Origin: an uncultured Ectothiorhodospiraceae bacterium
GTDB lineage: Bacteria > Pseudomonadota > Gammaproteobacteria > UBA6429 > Thiohalophilaceae
DNA length: 34,207 nt
Direction of reading: 5' to 3'
Assembly (NCBI GenBank): GCA_947258695.1
Contig: CAMYJG010000025.1
Coordinates: 1-34,207 of the forward strand
Under the pieces are notes generated by a model. It was given only the letters and a program-made list of their open reading frames with translations. It made no database searches and had not been told where the DNA came from. This document shows positions 1 through 8,460 of this stretch, in pieces. Made by a program: the position numbers and the translations under genes. Position 1 is the first letter of the stretch; each line of letters starts with the position of its first letter.

Positions 1-314
1 AAAACAAGGACTTTAAAGTAACTATTAAAAATACAGGGCAAACCTTTGAGGTCAAAGGCGGCATCAATCTTTTGCAAGCTGCAAAGAATGCTGGTATCGA
101 TTGGCCTTGCGATTGTAAAGTTGGTTCATGTGGTTCTTGCCGTGCAAAGCTAGTGAGCGGAAAAGTTAAAGAATTAACTGACTTTGCTTATACCCTAGAT
201 GGCGATATGTTGAAAAACAATTACATCCTTGCTTGTCAATCCCGTTTGAAAACTGATCTTGAAGTTGAGGTTGATTTTGATCAAGGCGCAATCAACCCAG
301 ATTACAAATCTTAA
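1..314 (+). CDS. 2Fe-2S ferredoxin or C-terminal ferredoxin domain (5' partial)
   Basis: The open frame runs in from the left edge (codons from base 3) and stops at 312-314. The visible 103 residues contain the plant-type [2Fe-2S] signature: Cys-x4-Cys-x2-Cys in CKVGSCGSC and the fourth Cys in ILACQS near the end, which would bind one low-potential cluster for electron transfer. A TTG at 72 is not a credible start, because the preceding in-frame residues (KDFKVTIKNTGQTFEVKGG) are the normal first beta strands of the fold. Whether this is a stand-alone ferredoxin starting just outside the window or the last domain of a larger reductase or oxygenase component cannot be decided here. A hairpin terminator follows 17 bases after the stop. 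Confidence 0.85.
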   Translation, partial: NKDFKVTIKNTGQTFEVKGGINLLQAAKNAGIDWPCDCKVGSCGSCRAKLVSGKVKELTDFAYTLDGDMLKNNYILACQSRLKTDLEVEVDFDQGAINPDYKS

Positions 315-330
315 ACATTACTTTTCTCAT

Positions 331-2683: not shown

Positions 2684-2871
2684 AGCTTTTTATTTTTTTC
2701 AGCTACATTTTCTAATGACGTTACTCTGGGCTTATAGTTTTTCGTGTTCCCTCATTTAGATATCAAGTGACTGGGTTTAAAGCACCAATTTGCCCTTTTT
2801 GCCTAAGAAACAATCCAGCAATGTGGCTTTAGGCCATTCTCTGAGCTTCAATTCATCTGTAAACTTGCAGC

Positions 2872-4677
2872 ATGGCTGGCCGTATTCCACAACAATTCAT
2901 TGATGACCTGTTAAACCGCGTCGATATTGTCGAAGTGATTGACTCACGCGTGCCATTAAAGAAAAAAGGCAAGGAATATACGGCCTGTTGCCCATTTCAC
3001 TCAGAAAAGACCCCTTCTTTCACCGTGAGTCAGAACAAACAGTTTTATCACTGCTTTGGCTGCAAGGCGAATGGCTCGGCAATTGGCTTTTTAATGGAAT
3101 ATGAGCATATGAGTTTCCCCGATGCCATAGAAGAGCTTGCCCGCAGCCAGGGAATTGAGGTGCCTTACGAAGGTGGCCAACGCCCGGATCCGGCACTGAA
3201 AAAAGCCCAGACCGATCTATATGAGCTGATGGCTGATGCTAATCAATTTTATCAAACACAATTACGCCAACACGCTGACGCAGAAATCGCCATTCGCTAC
3301 CTGAAAGAGCGTGGCCTTAGTGGTGAAGTCGCTAAAGATTTTGGTATTGGCTATGCTCCAGATGGCTGGGACAACTTGCTCAAAGCCCTCGGCACCACAA
3401 AGGAACGTGAAAAAGGGCTGGTAACAGCCGGCATGCTGATCAAAAAAGATAACGGTAAATGTTATGACCGTTTTCGTGATCGGATTATGTTCCCAATTCG
3501 CGACCGGCGTGGTCGGTGTATTGCGTTTGGTGGGCGAATATTGCCTAAAGACACCCCTAACGATAAGGATGCAAAATACCTCAATTCCCCTGAAACACCA
3601 CTCTTTCACAAGGGACGAGAACTGTATGGTTTATACGAAGCCCGCCAGGCGTTACGTGATATCCCTCGTTTAATGGTGGTTGAGGGGTATATGGATGTCG
3701 TGGCACTGGCTCAATTTGGGGTCAGAAATGCTGTGGCGACCCTTGGCACAGCCACTACTCCTGATCATTTGCAGCGCTTATTTCAGTTAACCTCGGAAGT
3801 GGTATTTTGCTTTGATGGTGACCGTGCAGGCAAAGATGCCGCCTGGCGTGCCTTACAAACCTGCCTGCCAGAAATGCGTGATGGGCGGGAAACCCGCTTC
3901 ATGTTCTTACCTGATGGTGAAGATCCGGATAGTTATATTCGAAAAATCGGTAAAGAGGCTTTCGAATCAGAGGTTAAACAGTCTCAAACTTTTTCTGAAT
4001 ATTTGTTCAAGCAATTAACCGAAGAAGCCGATATAAGCGGCATCGGAGGACGTGCCAAACTTGTTGAAACGGCTCGTCCCATGTTGTCGCAAATGCCCGA
4101 AGGGATATATCGTAAATTAATGTTTGAGCAATTAGAAAAATTAGGGCGGGTTGAATTATCCACAAGCACATCAGCACCACAAACAAATCGGCGATCAAGA
4201 GCATTTCGCCAGGCAGCAAAAAAATCCAGTGCCTCAATGACTCCGGTTCGAAAGGCGATTACCTATTTATTACATCAGCCAACGGTGGCAAAAGCCTGGC
4301 ATGACACTGGCAGAAACAGCGAAATATTAAAAACACTGGATCTGCCCGGCATGGATTTATTACTAGAAGTACTTGAAATACTAAGGATTAATCCCAATTT
4401 AAGTACCAGTGCATTGATTGAACGCTGGCGTGAAACACCTTCGGGTAGCCACCTGGCCAAGCTGGCAAGTGAACAGCCCGAGTTAGAGGACGACGCAGCA
4501 CTAGAAGTGGAATTCATCGCTACAATGGATGCCCTGCTAAAACAATCCGTTGATCATCGCTATGATGATTTACAGGCAAAATTAGACCATAGCACACTCA
4601 ATGAAACCGAAATGGCGGAGTACAAAATGCTGTTGCAGCAACTTTATGCAGCAAAAAGTGCTTCAAAATCGGACTAA
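2872..4677 (+). CDS. dnaG: DNA primase
   Basis: DnaG makes the RNA primers for chromosome replication together with the DnaB helicase. The 601-residue protein is of normal length. The N-terminal CHC2 zinc finger has Cys40, His43, Cys61 and Cys64 (CCPFH, YHCFGC). The catalytic core contains the Toprim glutamate Glu271 in VVEGYMD and the metal-binding Asp315-x-Asp317 in CFDGDRAGKDAA. The C-terminal 150 residues form the helical DnaB-binding region. The start ATG is supported by alignment of MAGRIPQQFIDDLL with known primases, although no strong Shine-Dalgarno sequence is visible. rpoD follows 102 bases after the stop, as in the macromolecular-synthesis operon, but the usual rpsU is not immediately upstream. 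Confidence 0.97.
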   Translation: MAGRIPQQFIDDLLNRVDIVEVIDSRVPLKKKGKEYTACCPFHSEKTPSFTVSQNKQFYHCFGCKANGSAIGFLMEYEHMSFPDAIEELARSQGIEVPYEGGQRPDPALKKAQTDLYELMADANQFYQTQLRQHADAEIAIRYLKERGLSGEVAKDFGIGYAPDGWDNLLKALGTTKEREKGLVTAGMLIKKDNGKCYDRFRDRIMFPIRDRRGRCIAFGGRILPKDTPNDKDAKYLNSPETPLFHKGRELYGLYEARQALRDIPRLMVVEGYMDVVALAQFGVRNAVATLGTATTPDHLQRLFQLTSEVVFCFDGDRAGKDAAWRALQTCLPEMRDGRETRFMFLPDGEDPDSYIRKIGKEAFESEVKQSQTFSEYLFKQLTEEADISGIGGRAKLVETARPMLSQMPEGIYRKLMFEQLEKLGRVELSTSTSAPQTNRRSRAFRQAAKKSSASMTPVRKAITYLLHQPTVAKAWHDTGRNSEILKTLDLPGMDLLLEVLEILRINPNLSTSALIERWRETPSGSHLAKLASEQPELEDDAALEVEFIATMDALLKQSVDHRYDDLQAKLDHSTLNETEMAEYKMLLQQLYAAKSASKSD

Positions 4678-4725
4678 TAGCAAATATTTGCTATATATAT
4701 TAGAAGAAATCCGTAAAAACTAGTG

Positions 4726-4731
4726 TATAAT
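4726..4731 (+). promoter_or_regulatory. Possible -10 box of an rpoD promoter
   Basis: A perfect TATAAT lies in the dnaG-rpoD gap, 48 bases before the chosen rpoD start. No good -35 hexamer lies 16-18 bases upstream (GAAGAA at 4703-4708), so the call is weak. A GTG at 4723 overlapping this box would lengthen RpoD by 19 residues not found in relatives, which argues that it is promoter DNA rather than coding. Confidence 0.3.
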
Positions 4732-4779
4732 TCGTTGGTTTTACGCCCCGATATTGTTAATACAGCTAAGAAGGCTTAT

Positions 4780-6624
4780 ATGTCGCAAGCAATGACTCAA
4801 GAAAAAACGCAATCTCAACTTAAGCTATTGATTGCAAAAGGAAAAGAGCAAGGATTCCTGACTTACGCGGAAGTTAACGATCACTTGCCTAACGATATTG
4901 TTGACCCAGAACAAATTGAAGAAATCGTTGGCATGATCAACGACATGGGTATTACCGTGCATGAAAAAGCACCTGATGCGGATACCCTACTTGAAGCCGG
5001 TAACTCTGTTGATGAAGACGCCGCTGAAGAAGCCGCCCAGGCCTTAGCCGCTGTTGATAGCGAATTTGGCCGCACCACGGATCCCGTTCGTATGTACATG
5101 CGTGAAATGGGAACCGTTGAACTACTCACCCGCGAAGGTGAAATCGCAATTGCCAAGCGTATTGAAGCCGGCCTACGTCACATGATGGCGGCACTTGCTT
5201 CATACCCGGAAACTATCCTGATGTTAATCGATTCATATGGCTTGATTGAAAAAGGCCAGATGAAACTCACCGATATTATTTCAGGTTTTATCGATCCCAA
5301 TGCACCGGATAATATTCCTACACCCGCGGAAATTGCTGCTGCCAATGCCAGTAAAACAGCCGGTAATGCAGAAGAAAGTGATGACGATGACGCAGAAGAA
5401 GTTGATACCGGTATCGATCCTGAAGAAGCGCAGCAACGCTTTACCCTGATTGAAAAACTGCATAACAAGCATGTCGCGGCATTACAAAAACATGGCAACG
5501 ACGATCCCAGGACTGTTACTGCACTGGAGTTAGTTCTGACTCAAATTTCTGAGTTAAAACTCACGCCTAAAATGACGGCAATGATTCAGTTTAATATGCG
5601 CGACTTGATTGCCCGTATTCGTGCCCAGGAAAAAATCATTCTCGACATTTGTGTTGAAGAAGCACACATGCCACGTAAACAATTCATCACCACCTTCCCC
5701 GATAGTGAAACCGATCTTAAATGGTTGGATCAACATATTGCGGCGGGCGAAAGTTACTCTGACGTGTTGAAAGAGCATCATGATGAAATATTAAAAGCAC
5801 AAACCAAGCTGGTTAAAATAGCTGAAGAAAGTGGACTTAGCATCAGCGAAATTAAAGCCATTAATCGCAAAATGTCGATTGGTGAAGCCAAGGCTCGTCG
5901 TGCCAAGAAAGACATGGTCGAAGCCAACTTGCGTTTGGTTATTTCAATTGCGAAAAAATACACTAACCGTGGCTTACAATTCCTCGATCTTATCCAGGAA
6001 GGTAACATCGGCTTAATGAAAGCGGTGGATAAGTTTGAATACCGTCGTGGTTACAAGTTCTCAACTTATGCCACATGGTGGATTCGCCAGGCGATTACCC
6101 GTTCTATCGCTGACCAGGCGCGTACGATTCGTATCCCGGTGCATATGATTGAAACGATCAATAAACTTAACCGTATCTCGCGGCAAATGTTGCAGGAAAT
6201 GGGTCGTGAACCTACGCCGGAAGAACTCTCTGAACGCATGGAAATGCCGGAAGATAAAGTTCGTAAAGTCCTTAAAATTGCTAAAGAACCCATCTCAATG
6301 GAAACACCGATTGGTGATGATGAAGATTCACACCTGGGTGACTTTATTGAAGATCAAAATGTTGAGTCCCCGGTTGACTCTGCAACCGCAGGTGGCCTGG
6401 GTGAAACCGTACAGGGTATTCTTGAAGGCTTAACCGCACGAGAAGCAAAAGTACTGCGGATGCGTTTTGGTATTGATATGAATACTGACCATACCCTGGA
6501 AGAAGTGGGCAAACAGTTTGATGTAACGCGTGAGCGTATTCGTCAGATTGAAGCCAAGGCCTTGCGTAAGCTACGTCATCCTAGCCGTTCTGATCATTTG
6601 CGTAGTTTTCTTGATATCGAATAA
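4780..6624 (+). CDS. rpoD: RNA polymerase primary sigma factor (sigma-70)
   Basis: RpoD directs RNA polymerase to housekeeping promoters. From ATG 4780 the protein is 614 residues, close to the 613 of E. coli, and begins [20 protein letters not shown], like known sigma-70 N-termini (region 1.1). AAGAAGG at 4768-4774 gives a good ribosome binding site; an ATG at 4792 is a second option. Region 1.2 is [20 protein letters not shown]. An acidic non-conserved insert ([12 protein letters not shown]) follows. Regions 2.3-2.4 contain [17 protein letters not shown], and the region 4.2 helix-turn-helix is [21 protein letters not shown] strong terminator follows within 30 bases. Confidence 0.97.
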
Positions 6625-6647: not shown

Positions 6648-6677
6648 AAAAAAGGCATCTTCGGATGCCTTTTTTTA
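6648..6677. terminator. Bidirectional terminator between rpoD and the HNH gene
   Basis: The perfect stem AAAGGCATC/GATGCCTTT is closed by a TTCG tetraloop (6660-6663), with an A run on the left and a T run on the right. It can therefore stop transcription from both directions. The minus-strand HNH gene stop codon (6675-6677) lies in its T tract. Confidence 0.88.
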
Positions 6678-7043
6678 TAATTTACACTCAGGATTGTGAT
6701 GTTCTGCATGACAATTTGAGCAAAGCAATTGACATTTTATTACTTCCGTTAAAATCACTTCCCATTTTCTGTTTGAGAGAGAACGAAGATCCAGTTGAAA
6801 AAGTTTCTCTTCTGGTTCTCTATGATGAAACTCAAGTGCAGAATAATTATTATTGTAACCACAAAGTTCACACTGGTTACCTTTTAACCTGATTAACTCA
6901 ATTTTTCTTCTTCGACCTCTGTCTTGTTGTGCTTCATAAGACTGAAGAGATTGATTTAAAAATATATTTTTACATCCCCTGGAACAATACTTTGATTGCC
7001 TGCCAGTTAAGGCCTTACTGCACTGTAAACAAACTTTTTTCAT
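6675..7043 (-). CDS. HNH-type nuclease-like protein
   Basis: This is a 122-residue protein with two zinc-type cysteine clusters. The N-terminal one is CLQC...CSRGC (Cys-x2-Cys-x9-Cys-x3-Cys). The C-terminal one is CELCGY, then ALEFHHREP, then LLCSNCHAEHH, which fits the HNH fold with paired cysteines stabilising the His-His ... Asn-Cys-His active site. HNH proteins of this size are often free-standing homing or phage endonucleases, but small HNH proteins of unknown role are also common. No good Shine-Dalgarno is visible before the ATG. The gene converges on rpoD and shares its terminator. Its 5' end is 108 bases from the divergently oriented, intron-bearing tRNA gene, so it could be linked to the mobility of that intron; this link is inference. 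Confidence 0.75.
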   Translation of the reverse strand: MKKVCLQCSKALTGRQSKYCSRGCKNIFLNQSLQSYEAQQDRGRRRKIELIRLKGNQCELCGYNNNYSALEFHHREPEEKLFQLDLRSLSNRKWEVILTEVIKCQLLCSNCHAEHHNPECKL

Positions 7044-7111: not shown

Positions 7112-7139
7112 TTAACAATCAACAATCATGTAGTAGAAT
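7112..7139 (+). promoter_or_regulatory. Sigma-70 promoter of the split tRNA gene
   Basis: TTAACA (7112-7117) and TAGAAT (7134-7139) are separated by 16 bases. A GC-rich discriminator (GGCCCCCG, about 7140-7147) follows, as is usual for stable-RNA promoters under stringent control. The mature tRNA 5' end is 13 bases after the -10 box. Confidence 0.55.
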
Positions 7140-7151
7140 GGCCCCCGTTTT

Positions 7152-7499
7152 GGGCCTATAGCTCAGTTGGTTAGAGCAGGGGACTCATCAAAATGGTGCG
7201 TTTATATCGAAAGGTATGAAATGAACGGGATGAATTCAGGGAAACCTTAACAGTCATTTTTATATGAGCTGATGGCAATCCTGAGCCAAGCTGAAAGTAC
7301 ACTTTCAGAAGGTGCAGAGACTACCTGAGAACTGGTTTTATTTTAAACCAAGCGTTCTTAATAACAGGCAAGAGCGTCCCGCCCCTAACAGACAAATTTG
7401 ATCTTTGTGCTGAGGGTGATGAGATAGTCCACACTCGATAGAAATATCAAGATAATGTGAATCCCTTGGTCCTTGGTTCGAGTCCAAGTAGGCCCACCA
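7152..7499 (+). tRNA. tRNA-Ile(CAU), split by a group I intron
   Basis: The exons 7152-7188 and 7460-7499 join to a 77-base tRNA including the encoded CCA. The acceptor GGGCCTA pairs perfectly with TAGGCCC. The D stem is GCTC/GAGC. The anticodon stem GGGGA/TCCCT closes the loop CTCATAA, giving anticodon CAU. The T stem is CTTGG/CCAAG with loop TTCGAGT. The first pair is G1-C72, so it is not an initiator. The variable loop TGGTC and the pairs C4-G69 and C5-G68 match tRNA-Ile2 of E. coli (the substrate of the lysidine synthetase TilS) rather than elongator Met. It would therefore read AUA codons after C34 is changed to lysidine. A Met identity is less likely but cannot be excluded by eye. Confidence 0.9.
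7189..7459 (+). ncRNA. Group I self-splicing intron in the tRNA anticodon loop
   Basis: This 271-nt insertion sits between tRNA positions 36 and 37. The core elements are visible: P (TTCAGGGAAACC, 7235-7246), Q (AATCCTGAGCCAAG, 7277-7290), R (GTGCAGAGACTA, 7312-7323) and S (GAGATAGTCC, 7421-7430). P4 can form from TCAGG 7236-7240 with CCTGA 7280-7284, and P7 from GACTA 7319-7323 with TAGTC 7425-7429. The 5' exon end CAU pairs with an internal guide GUG (7196-7198), giving the required U-G wobble at the 5' splice site and a 7-nt loop. The P1 helix resumes after one mismatch. The last intron base is G7459, as required. A hairpin CTGAAAG/CTTTCAG (7291-7308) lies between Q and R. No ORF is inside. 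The size, the tRNA host and the CAU/GUG pairing recall the IC3-type intron of Azoarcus tRNA-Ile(CAU). Confidence 0.92.
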
Positions 7500-7516: not shown

Positions 7517-7984
7517 CTACTGTTTGGATTGAAGATAATTCTCAATTCCAATTTTCTCAATCAAGCCTAGTTGTTTTTCAAGCCAATAGGCATGGTCTTC
7601 TTCTGTATCTGTTAACAGCTTTTCTAATATTTCTCTTGATTGATAATCCTGCTCTGTTTCACAAATGGCGATAGCTTCTTTTAGTGCAGCAACAACGGCA
7701 TACTCAAGCTCAAGATCATAATTTAACATGTCTGGTACATTACTACCGACTTTCAAGCCTTCACGTTGTGACAGATCGGGCGTCGCTTCAAGGAACAGCA
7801 TACGGCGAATCAGGGCATCCGCATGTTCCATTTCTTCTTCGGTTTCATGCTTGATACGCTCATAAAGTTCATTTAAACCCCAATCATCATACATACGTGA
7901 ATGAATGAAATATTGATCAATCGCGGTTAACTCGCCCGCCAAGAGTTTTTGTAATTGCGCGATGACTTTTGTATTACCTTTCAT
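7517..7984 (-). CDS. Bacterioferritin, catalytic ferroxidase subunit
   Basis: Bacterioferritins form 24-subunit cages that oxidise Fe(II) and store ferric mineral. This 155-residue subunit keeps the di-iron ferroxidase ligands: Glu18, Glu51 and His54 (EEEMEHAD), Glu94, and the Glu128-x-x-His131 pair in DTEEDH. Met52, the position of the heme ligand, is also present. The sequence resembles the Pseudomonas BfrA/FtnA type ([36 protein letters not shown]). It is the second gene of a two-gene unit, 11 bases after the non-catalytic partner, so the two are probably co-translated and co-assembled. It lies just after the split tRNA gene and is convergent with it. Confidence 0.93.
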
Positions 7985-7995
7985 AGTTTCGCCCC

Positions 7996-8460
7996 CTACA
8001 TTCCAGATTGTAGATAATTTTGTATACCGAGCTTCTCAATTAAAGCAAGCTGGGTTTCACCCCAATCAACACGTTCTTCATTGTGCTCTAGAAGTTCTTC
8101 AAGGTGTTCACGGCTAATATAGTCGCCCGCTTGTTCACACTGGGCAATGGTTGCTTTCAAAGTGCCGTTGATGCGGTTTTCCATATCGAGATCATTTTTA
8201 ATTACTTCAGGGACATCTTCTCCAATCAGGAGTTTACCCAGGTCTTGTAAATTAGGCAGACCTTCAAGGAAGAGTATTCGCTTAACCAGGCGATCGGCTT
8301 CTTTCATGGCGTGAATAGAAGCATCGTAATCGCGTTTTTCCAGTGACTCGAAGCCCCAGTCACCCAGCATTCGGGCATGAAGAAAGTATTGGTTAATTGC
8401 AGTTAATGATTCTTTCAGTACCTGGTTAAAAGCTTGGTTGAGTTTGCTATCCCCTTTCAT
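7996..8460 (-). CDS. Bacterioferritin, heme-binding subunit lacking a ferroxidase centre
   Basis: This 154-residue subunit matches BfrB-type bacterioferritins along its length ([20 protein letters not shown]). Most ferroxidase ligands are replaced: position 18 is Ser, 51 is Ala, 54 is Glu, and the C-terminal Glu-x-x-His pair is Asn-x-x-Arg (HNEERVDW); only Glu94 remains. Met52, which ligates the inter-subunit heme, is kept (IHAMKEAD). It is therefore probably a non-oxidising subunit that carries heme and, with the neighbouring catalytic subunit, forms mixed cages and receives electrons from Bfd for iron release. Heteromeric bacterioferritins with split functions are known in other proteobacteria. 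A strong AGGAGGA (8470-8476) precedes the ATG. Confidence 0.92.

Follow-up and report, generated by a model that had tools for sequence, protein, structure and literature searches.

We analyzed a stretch of 34,207 nucleotides (the window; contig CAMYJG010000025.1, forward strand) from an uncultured Ectothiorhodospiraceae bacterium of the GTDB family Thiohalophilaceae and found that a tRNA-Ile(CAU) gene, 77 nt long once joined, spans positions 7152–7499 and contains a 271-nt group I intron. A small gene whose predicted product is an HNH endonuclease is divergent from the tRNA gene and begins 108 bp upstream of it, in the spacer between rpoD and the tRNA. Other genomes and fetched loci are given below as G and L numbers. 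The features of the locus are:

4723–6624, plus strand: rpoD, conserved neighbour of tRNA-Ile(CAU).
6675–7043, minus strand: predicted HNH endonuclease gene, 122 aa, with N-terminal Cys pairs; phrog_2255 match at E 3.3e-22; H73, H74, N91 and H112 invariant.
7152–7188, plus strand: 5' exon of tRNA-Ile(CAU), with the anticodon CAU as its last three letters; identical uninterrupted gene in L089, L090 and L092.
7189–7459, plus strand: 271-nt group I intron with terminal G; RF00028 at 79.2 bits, covariation in 33 sequences, longest stop-free frame 48 codons.
7460–7499, plus strand: 3' exon of tRNA-Ile(CAU), CCA encoded; seen joined to the 5' exon in uninterrupted relatives.

An initial annotation, made from the letters alone, had proposed that a group I intron at 7189–7459 splits this gene. 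The Rfam group I covariance model RF00028 bears this out, with a match at 7176–7451 (plus strand; E 9.9e-19) that covers model positions 1–253 of 253, which is the whole core, and whose 79.2 bits compare with a curated gathering score of 50 bits; it is the sole match in the window at the curated threshold and the sole one found in the 3.2-Mb assembly. The suggestion that tRNA finders can miss the gene holds for ARAGORN in its default mode, which reported zero tRNAs in the window when run without introns. When introns of 100–600 nt were allowed, ARAGORN placed a tRNA at 7152–7499 with a 271-nt intron after position 36 and misprinted the anticodon as ctg; exons 7152–7188 and 7460–7499, when joined, fold as a 77-nt tRNA with the anticodon CAT. 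The same 77 of 77 nucleotides stand without interruption in three congeners (G002, L089; G006, L090; G005, L092) and in a further member of the family (L107), after rpoD in all four. These natural empty sites fix the boundaries at 7188/7189 and 7459/7460, right to the base where they had been proposed, and place the insertion point between U36 and A37; they also rule out two tRNA halves brought together by chance. Thus, the presence of a group I intron in this tRNA-Ile(CAU) gene is as good as certain.

We extracted 53 intron rows, duplicates of one genome included, and then made a structural alignment of 33 intron-bearing tRNA genes (32 bacterial and one phage), in which helices are named by group I nomenclature. 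Two elements of the alignment have fixed positions in the window:

7186–7198, plus strand: segment invariant in all 33 rows.
7319–7429, plus strand: P7, in which GACUA (7319–7323) pairs with UAGUC (7425–7429); invariant and 100% paired in 33/33 rows.

The core elements that the initial annotation had listed are all in place: P1, a CAU/GUG pairing with its U-G pair, shows no variation in the 33 aligned genes, P4 is paired in 100% of rows, and P7, which we take to be the guanosine-binding helix, does not vary. The terminal G that had been noted in the window is there and in the aligned rows; its presence in 53/53 extracted rows is by construction. The window intron carries GAAA loops on P2 and P9. 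Over the 53 pairs of the named structure, 97.4% of cells are paired, compared to 88.9% in shuffled alignments and 33–48% when the partners are slid. Changes on both sides are seen in 24 of these pairs, as compared to 15.0 in shuffles, and the covariation score is 0.327 against 0.143 in shuffles (0/500 reach 0.327) and 0.055–0.091 when slid. Such both-side changes occur in all pairs of P2, of P6 and of P9, in two of P7.2, and in three more of P3 and P7.1 that each rest on one row. One P8 pair of the 53 was set out of register (30/33 rows unpaired), which lowered P8 pairing to 69.7%. The longest stop-free frame within the intron is 48 codons; therefore, it encodes no endonuclease of the usual size, and an endonuclease reading frame inside the intron was excluded on this ground.

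That the intron core has decayed or depends on a protein, and that the split gene is a pseudogene, is hardly credible. With 164 contigs and 95% completeness, the assembly is a draft from which a second intact gene could be missing, and two relatives, G003 and G004, carry a dead remnant of the same intron. Against this, the core helices are intact and covary, the mature tRNA is identical to that of the congeners, TilS is encoded in the genome (191.8 bits; cut-off 93.6), and no other Ile-type CAU tRNA was found, either among the 30 tRNAs fetched and read by ARAGORN out of 35 tRNA matches in the genome or with a 77-nt exon query of the genome. Two other CAU tRNAs were read, which by their features are presumably the elongator and initiator Met types. 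A second intact tRNA-Ile(CAU) copy is thus unlikely, and neither of the two things that were to count against the split gene, an intact second copy and a decayed core, was found.

In a search of 190 sampled genomes, the window's own included, RF00028 gave 55 matches in 44 genomes (34 above the cut-off), of which 30 were fetched as loci. Twenty-one of the 30 lie at the tRNA-Ile(CAU) site, three in tRNA-Leu(UAA) and three in 23S rRNA; of the rest, ARAGORN called one tRNA Lys(ctt) and one His, and one is without assignment. The intron is therefore present in tRNA-Ile(CAU) of at least 21 of the 190 genomes, 12 of them among the 40 sampled from the window's family, which contradicts, for this neighbourhood, the expectation of such introns being uncommon in gammaproteobacteria. 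The split gene follows rpoD in 20 of the 21 loci, and the remaining locus, L058, shows no rpoD. The intact-gene pattern (at most two mismatches) was seen in 119 of 183 genomes, a count that takes in some tRNA-Lys cross-matches. The AUA decoder of at least 12 of the 40 sampled family genomes is encoded in such a way that it can escape a tRNA search with default settings. Among the introns at other sites, those in the tRNAs called Lys(ctt) and His lie at L046 1454–1767 (minus strand) and L039 1475–1792 (plus strand) and those in tRNA-Leu(UAA) in L055, L057 and L059, all in genomes of the same class; the 23S rRNA matches lie inside genes of related genomes (L050, L054 and L056).

The initial annotation did not mention the gene at 6675–7043. 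Its sequence places the product in a family of HNH endonucleases known from phage tRNA clusters: it matches phrog_2255 (E 3.3e-22) and other HNH families of PHROGs, and 17 aligned copies keep Cys 5, 8, 20, 24, 58, 61, 104, 108 and 111, His 73, 74, 112 and 116, and Asn 91. The curated cut-off of the Pfam HNH family PF01844 was not reached (13 bits compared to 21.4). An AlphaFold2 model has a mean predicted local distance difference test score (pLDDT) of 93.3; with this model, Foldseek found nothing in the PDB at E ≤ 0.001 (best E 0.11), with top rows that are mostly HNH nucleases, and a sequence search against solved structures gave a best E of 0.43. In one close pair of copies (L080 and L083, 103 codons), the ratio of nonsynonymous to synonymous substitution rates (dN/dS) is 0.11–0.12, which suggests purifying selection on the gene.

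Of 183 genomes, three contain full-length relatives of this HNH gene (that of the window, G012 from the same family and G075 from another family); in a sample of the class, full-length relatives were found in 3 of 369 (the window's, G075 and G348, with two further rows that are weak, one of them the remnant in L199), and each of these copies lies beside an intron-split tRNA-Ile(CAU); the intron of G348 scores 53.7 bits with RF00028. A scan of one genome per species over 84,980 species, which took three intron-linked copies as query and so reached only their close relatives, gave 15 HNH loci, 13 of them linked to rpoD, with G012 and G075 appearing again as L075 and L078. Eleven of the 13 have a split tRNA-Ile(CAU) at the Rfam threshold, and in the other two (L080 and L083) the contig ends inside the HNH gene. 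When these two are excluded and L086, whose HNH frame is disrupted, is included, 13 of 13 readable rpoD-linked copies, the window and G348 among them, lie beside an intron-split tRNA-Ile(CAU). In the class sample, where at least 19 of 369 genomes, counted by hand, are intron-positive, the association has a Fisher p of 1.2e-4 (2.3e-3 without the window), uncorrected for relatedness.

Two of the scanned records call for a remark. L074 comes from a record with an archaeon in its title, an assignment that its rpoD renders unlikely. L085, from an 'Armatimonadetes' metagenome-assembled genome, has an HNH gene at 2980–3423 (plus strand; 57% identity) beside a tRNA-Ile(CAU)-like gene at 2836–2957 (minus strand) with a 49-nt insert in the anticodon loop. 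By eye the insert resembles a minihelix of acceptor and T-arm; in the computed fold the outer stem is present and the T-arm absent. It gave no group I intron match at the Rfam threshold, and a search of the assembly with at most three mismatches found near matches and no exact intact Ile-type copy.

We then compared the distribution of the HNH gene with an RpoD tree of 44 rows, one per genome (35 with the intron and 9 intact), from which L037 (a short RpoD piece), L058 (no rpoD), G003, G004 and loci without the tRNA pattern were left out. On this tree the HNH gene needs 10 changes, at least five of which are forced by starred branches, intact alleles need seven, and HNH copies do not cluster (108 of 500 shuffles are as low). 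On the intron tree the HNH gene likewise needs 10 changes, at least four of them forced; 20 of the 32 inner branches are open and the bootstrap is unsettled. Since the gene needs 10 changes and is unclustered on the RpoD tree, shared ancestry alone explains the linkage poorly. The linkage between the HNH gene and the intron is conserved beyond common descent, and the HNH gene was probably gained and lost several times, with the intron beside it in every case observed.

The state of the locus differs among relatives of the window's organism. Among congeners, the intron is present in G000 and G001, whereas the gene of G002, G005 and G006 is intact and rpoD-linked, and G007 has an exact intact tRNA match on a different contig from its rpoD. 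G003 and G004 gave weak RF00028 matches (28.0 and 27.6 bits). Both have an intact CAU tRNA that agrees with the window gene at 60 of 77 positions and has a CCGA/UCGG anticodon stem, followed on its 3' side by a terminator-like hairpin (by eye) and then by the 3' part of the intron with the old 3' exon. This remnant corresponds to window positions 7301–7499, with 93.5% identity in G004 and 85.0% in G003, and is arranged as follows:

G004, L115: intact CAU tRNA at 681–757, remnant at about 820–1020, after rpoD.
G003, L225: intact CAU tRNA at 313–389, remnant at 452–631.

The G003 and G004 lineages therefore probably descend from carriers of the split gene, which was lost as a foreign tRNA took over its front part. 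The replacing tRNA resembles the CAU tRNA of a viral locus (L116) at 63 of 77 positions; similar tRNAs occur in 618 phage records, none of which covers 80% of the query. Decay of the HNH gene is seen as well. In L086 the HNH gene is broken into two frames, and an intact CAU-anticodon tRNA of nearly the same sequence lies beside the split gene; in L199 (1495–2837) an HNH fragment of about 22–28 residues lies beside a split tRNA-Ile(CAU) and is followed by two genes, one for a restriction enzyme of BglII type (PF09195, 4.5e-44) and one for a methylase of the MT-A70 type (2.6e-30).

These data bear on whether the two genes are neighbours by chance, the intron being an ordinary, largely vertical and repeatedly lost tRNA intron and the HNH gene a phage gene in passage that happened to land in the spacer between rpoD and the tRNA. 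The frequency of the intron in the family, mostly without an HNH gene, the abundance of the HNH family in phages (240 phage records) and the fossils in G003 and G004, which record intron loss by replacement, are all in keeping with such an account. A passing gene would not be expected to lie beside the split tRNA gene in every one of 13 readable copies or to be scattered over the host tree with 10 changes. A search for HNH remnants in 48 stretches downstream of rpoD (several of which share a genome, and some of which measure just a few bases) also speaks against it, as only the four stretches with a known copy gave E < 1. We therefore consider a chance neighbourhood unlikely, though it deserves to be weighed.

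The HNH gene beside the interrupted tRNA in relatives suggests that intron and enzyme travel as partners. We favour, with some confidence, the reading that the locus is a two-part mobile element that moves by collaborative homing in a chromosome. The arrangement by which collaborative homing is recognized, an intron without a reading frame and an endonuclease gene outside it but close by, is the one found in the window. Around the observed linkage, the proposal runs as follows. The intron would splice itself from the precursor with guanosine as cofactor, after which the tRNA would mature normally, and TilS could modify tRNA-Ile(CAU) to read AUA. The free-standing HNH enzyme, kin of the nucleases of phage tRNA clusters, would cut an intronless tRNA-Ile(CAU) gene at or near the anticodon; the intron would destroy the recognition site and so protect its host, and repair from an intron-bearing donor would copy the intron and the HNH gene together. 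Later, the HNH gene may decay or be lost while the harmless intron persists, so that most introns would now stand alone, and the split gene could in turn be overwritten by an intact foreign tRNA.

The viral relatives of the HNH gene speak partly for and partly against this proposal. Among the best 80 of 91 viral HNH loci, 74 have tRNA genes, at least 64 of them within about 600 nt (a lower bound, as the HNH end was set to 3200 for some loci, which biases distances long, and a count taken without a baseline of random phage loci). The four closest viral relatives (L116–L119; 58, 50, 55 and 54% identity) each have an intact CAU tRNA at a distance of 3–20 nt, in tail-to-tail orientation, and in L118–L121 the HNH reading frame continues into the antisense of the tRNA 3' end. 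Several of the findings weigh against the proposal. These viral relatives stand beside uninterrupted CAU tRNAs (Ile or Met), so the interruption is not always needed; the HNH gene of L120 adjoins a tRNA-Lys(CUU); and in the bacteria the HNH gene lies 5' of the tRNA, in L116–L119 3' of it. In bacteria, 16 of the 19 intron-positive class genomes are without a full-length HNH gene, which means that the intron persists without it, and L084, with an intact HNH gene, carries, just downstream of its split tRNA-Ile(CAU), a partial tRNA copy whose anticodon region is uninterrupted (at about 258–328, minus strand; its 3' half is nearly identical to the 3' exon of the split gene). The RpoD tree has numerous weak branches (of its 41 inner branches, 13 are starred), and the HNH tree, with long branches and little support, is too poorly resolved to reveal transfer; its approximately unbiased test value (p-AU) is 0.271 for holding the window and L075 together. 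Finally, because the HNH scan started from three intron-linked queries, distant HNH genes beside intact tRNA-Ile genes would have been missed.

The same viral loci raise the alternative that the HNH gene homes alone (intronless homing) and makes its cut at some other point near the tRNA or rpoD, with the intron an unprotective passenger in the co-conversion tract. Besides the CAU tRNAs that L116–L119 abut, which ARAGORN reads as intact, it can draw on the absence of any RF00028 row among the best 150 of 207 matches for 20 viral loci, and on free-standing endonucleases such as SegB of phages T4 and T6, which sits among tRNA genes and is described as cutting inside them (PMC13096335). A passenger, however, would often be missing, and there is no readable rpoD-linked HNH copy without the intron, so that we regard lone homing as quite improbable and collaborative homing as the better account.

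Phages can carry the split gene too. In Klebsiella phage Muenster we found an unannotated tRNA-Ile(CAU)-like gene with a group I intron at the same site (104.1 bits); the surrounding tRNA cluster includes an HNH gene of the same family (43% over 79 aa):

Muenster, L072 3003–3313 (phage 302826–303136): split tRNA gene, read by eye and not reported by ARAGORN.

Three more Klebsiella phage records match the whole split gene at 99.7–100% identity, and a fifth record matches 82% of it at 91%. Scans of viral contigs for exact patterns of the intron gave no hits. Read from sequence, this shows only that phages can carry the split tRNA gene and says nothing on transfer to the window's organism. In two Vibrio phages (L213 and L214), an unannotated stretch like the phage tRNA intron lies between pieces of a split terminase gene. 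A wider version of the proposal, which we hold tentatively as possible rather than probable, is that a phage-type HNH gene survives in chromosomes only beside an interrupted tRNA-Ile(CAU), the intron serving as host immunity, phages as possible vehicles and replacement by an intact tRNA whose anticodon stem differs, as in G003 and G004, as a way out.

The intron itself is of an already known kind, found in Azoarcus, Acidovorax and Burkholderia, the latter two being Betaproteobacteria by older naming. The intron in the Azoarcus tRNA-Ile(CAU) belongs to subgroup IC3 and is about 205 nt long; it shares with the window intron the tRNA, the location in the anticodon loop, the CAU/GUG P1 and the lack of a reading frame, and differs in that the window intron has a gammaproteobacterial host, is 271 nt long and has an HNH gene adjacent to it. 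SegB, which is of the GIY-YIG family, differs from the HNH enzyme of the window in being phage-borne and without an intron partner. Group I introns in tRNA-Ile2 of Acidovorax and Burkholderia leave the gene undetected by tRNAscan-SE, and the passages on this case mention no linked endonuclease (PMC8450103). Putative group I introns are described in gammaproteobacterial tRNA-Arg and tRNA-Leu of the Beggiatoa BOGUAY and of Thiomargarita; these are other tRNAs, and the corresponding passages leave the introns untyped and mention no linked HNH gene (PMC4853749). The table of a 2014 review places tRNAs with group I introns in cyanobacteria, alpha- and betaproteobacteria (PMC4033280). Collaborative homing is described, in the relevant parts of two papers, for T3/T7-like phages, a cyanophage and ICP1, and for two phages the endonuclease target was shown to be the intron insertion site (PMC3984707; PMC10448857). 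The window shares with these systems a group I intron and a nearby free-standing endonuclease gene; unlike them, it involves a chromosomal tRNA gene in place of phage protein genes and is known from sequence alone. We found no collaborative homing at a bacterial tRNA gene in the open-access literature, subscription papers being outside the scope of the search. The pairing of a tRNA intron with an HNH gene is the new element here. A linked free-standing nuclease offers a concrete, testable route for the spread of tRNA introns without reading frames in bacteria; if true, it would carry collaborative homing beyond the protein genes of phages, to an essential tRNA gene on a chromosome, and tie it to phages in which the same tRNA, intron and nuclease family occur.

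Two smaller features flank the HNH gene:

6648–6675, plus strand: terminator-like hairpin that follows rpoD, where the HNH gene has its 3' end.
7112–7139, plus strand: sigma-70-like promoter match TTAACA-16-TAGAAT, 5' of the tRNA; 10/12 consensus positions.

The region holds four promoter matches as compared to 2.8 in shuffles, which makes the one at 7112–7139 only suggestive. Downstream of the tRNA in the window, at 7517–8460 on the minus strand, two ferritin-like genes (PF00210) stand in tandem; they have no match in the other fetched loci, none of which extends further than about 2.3 kb beyond rpoD.
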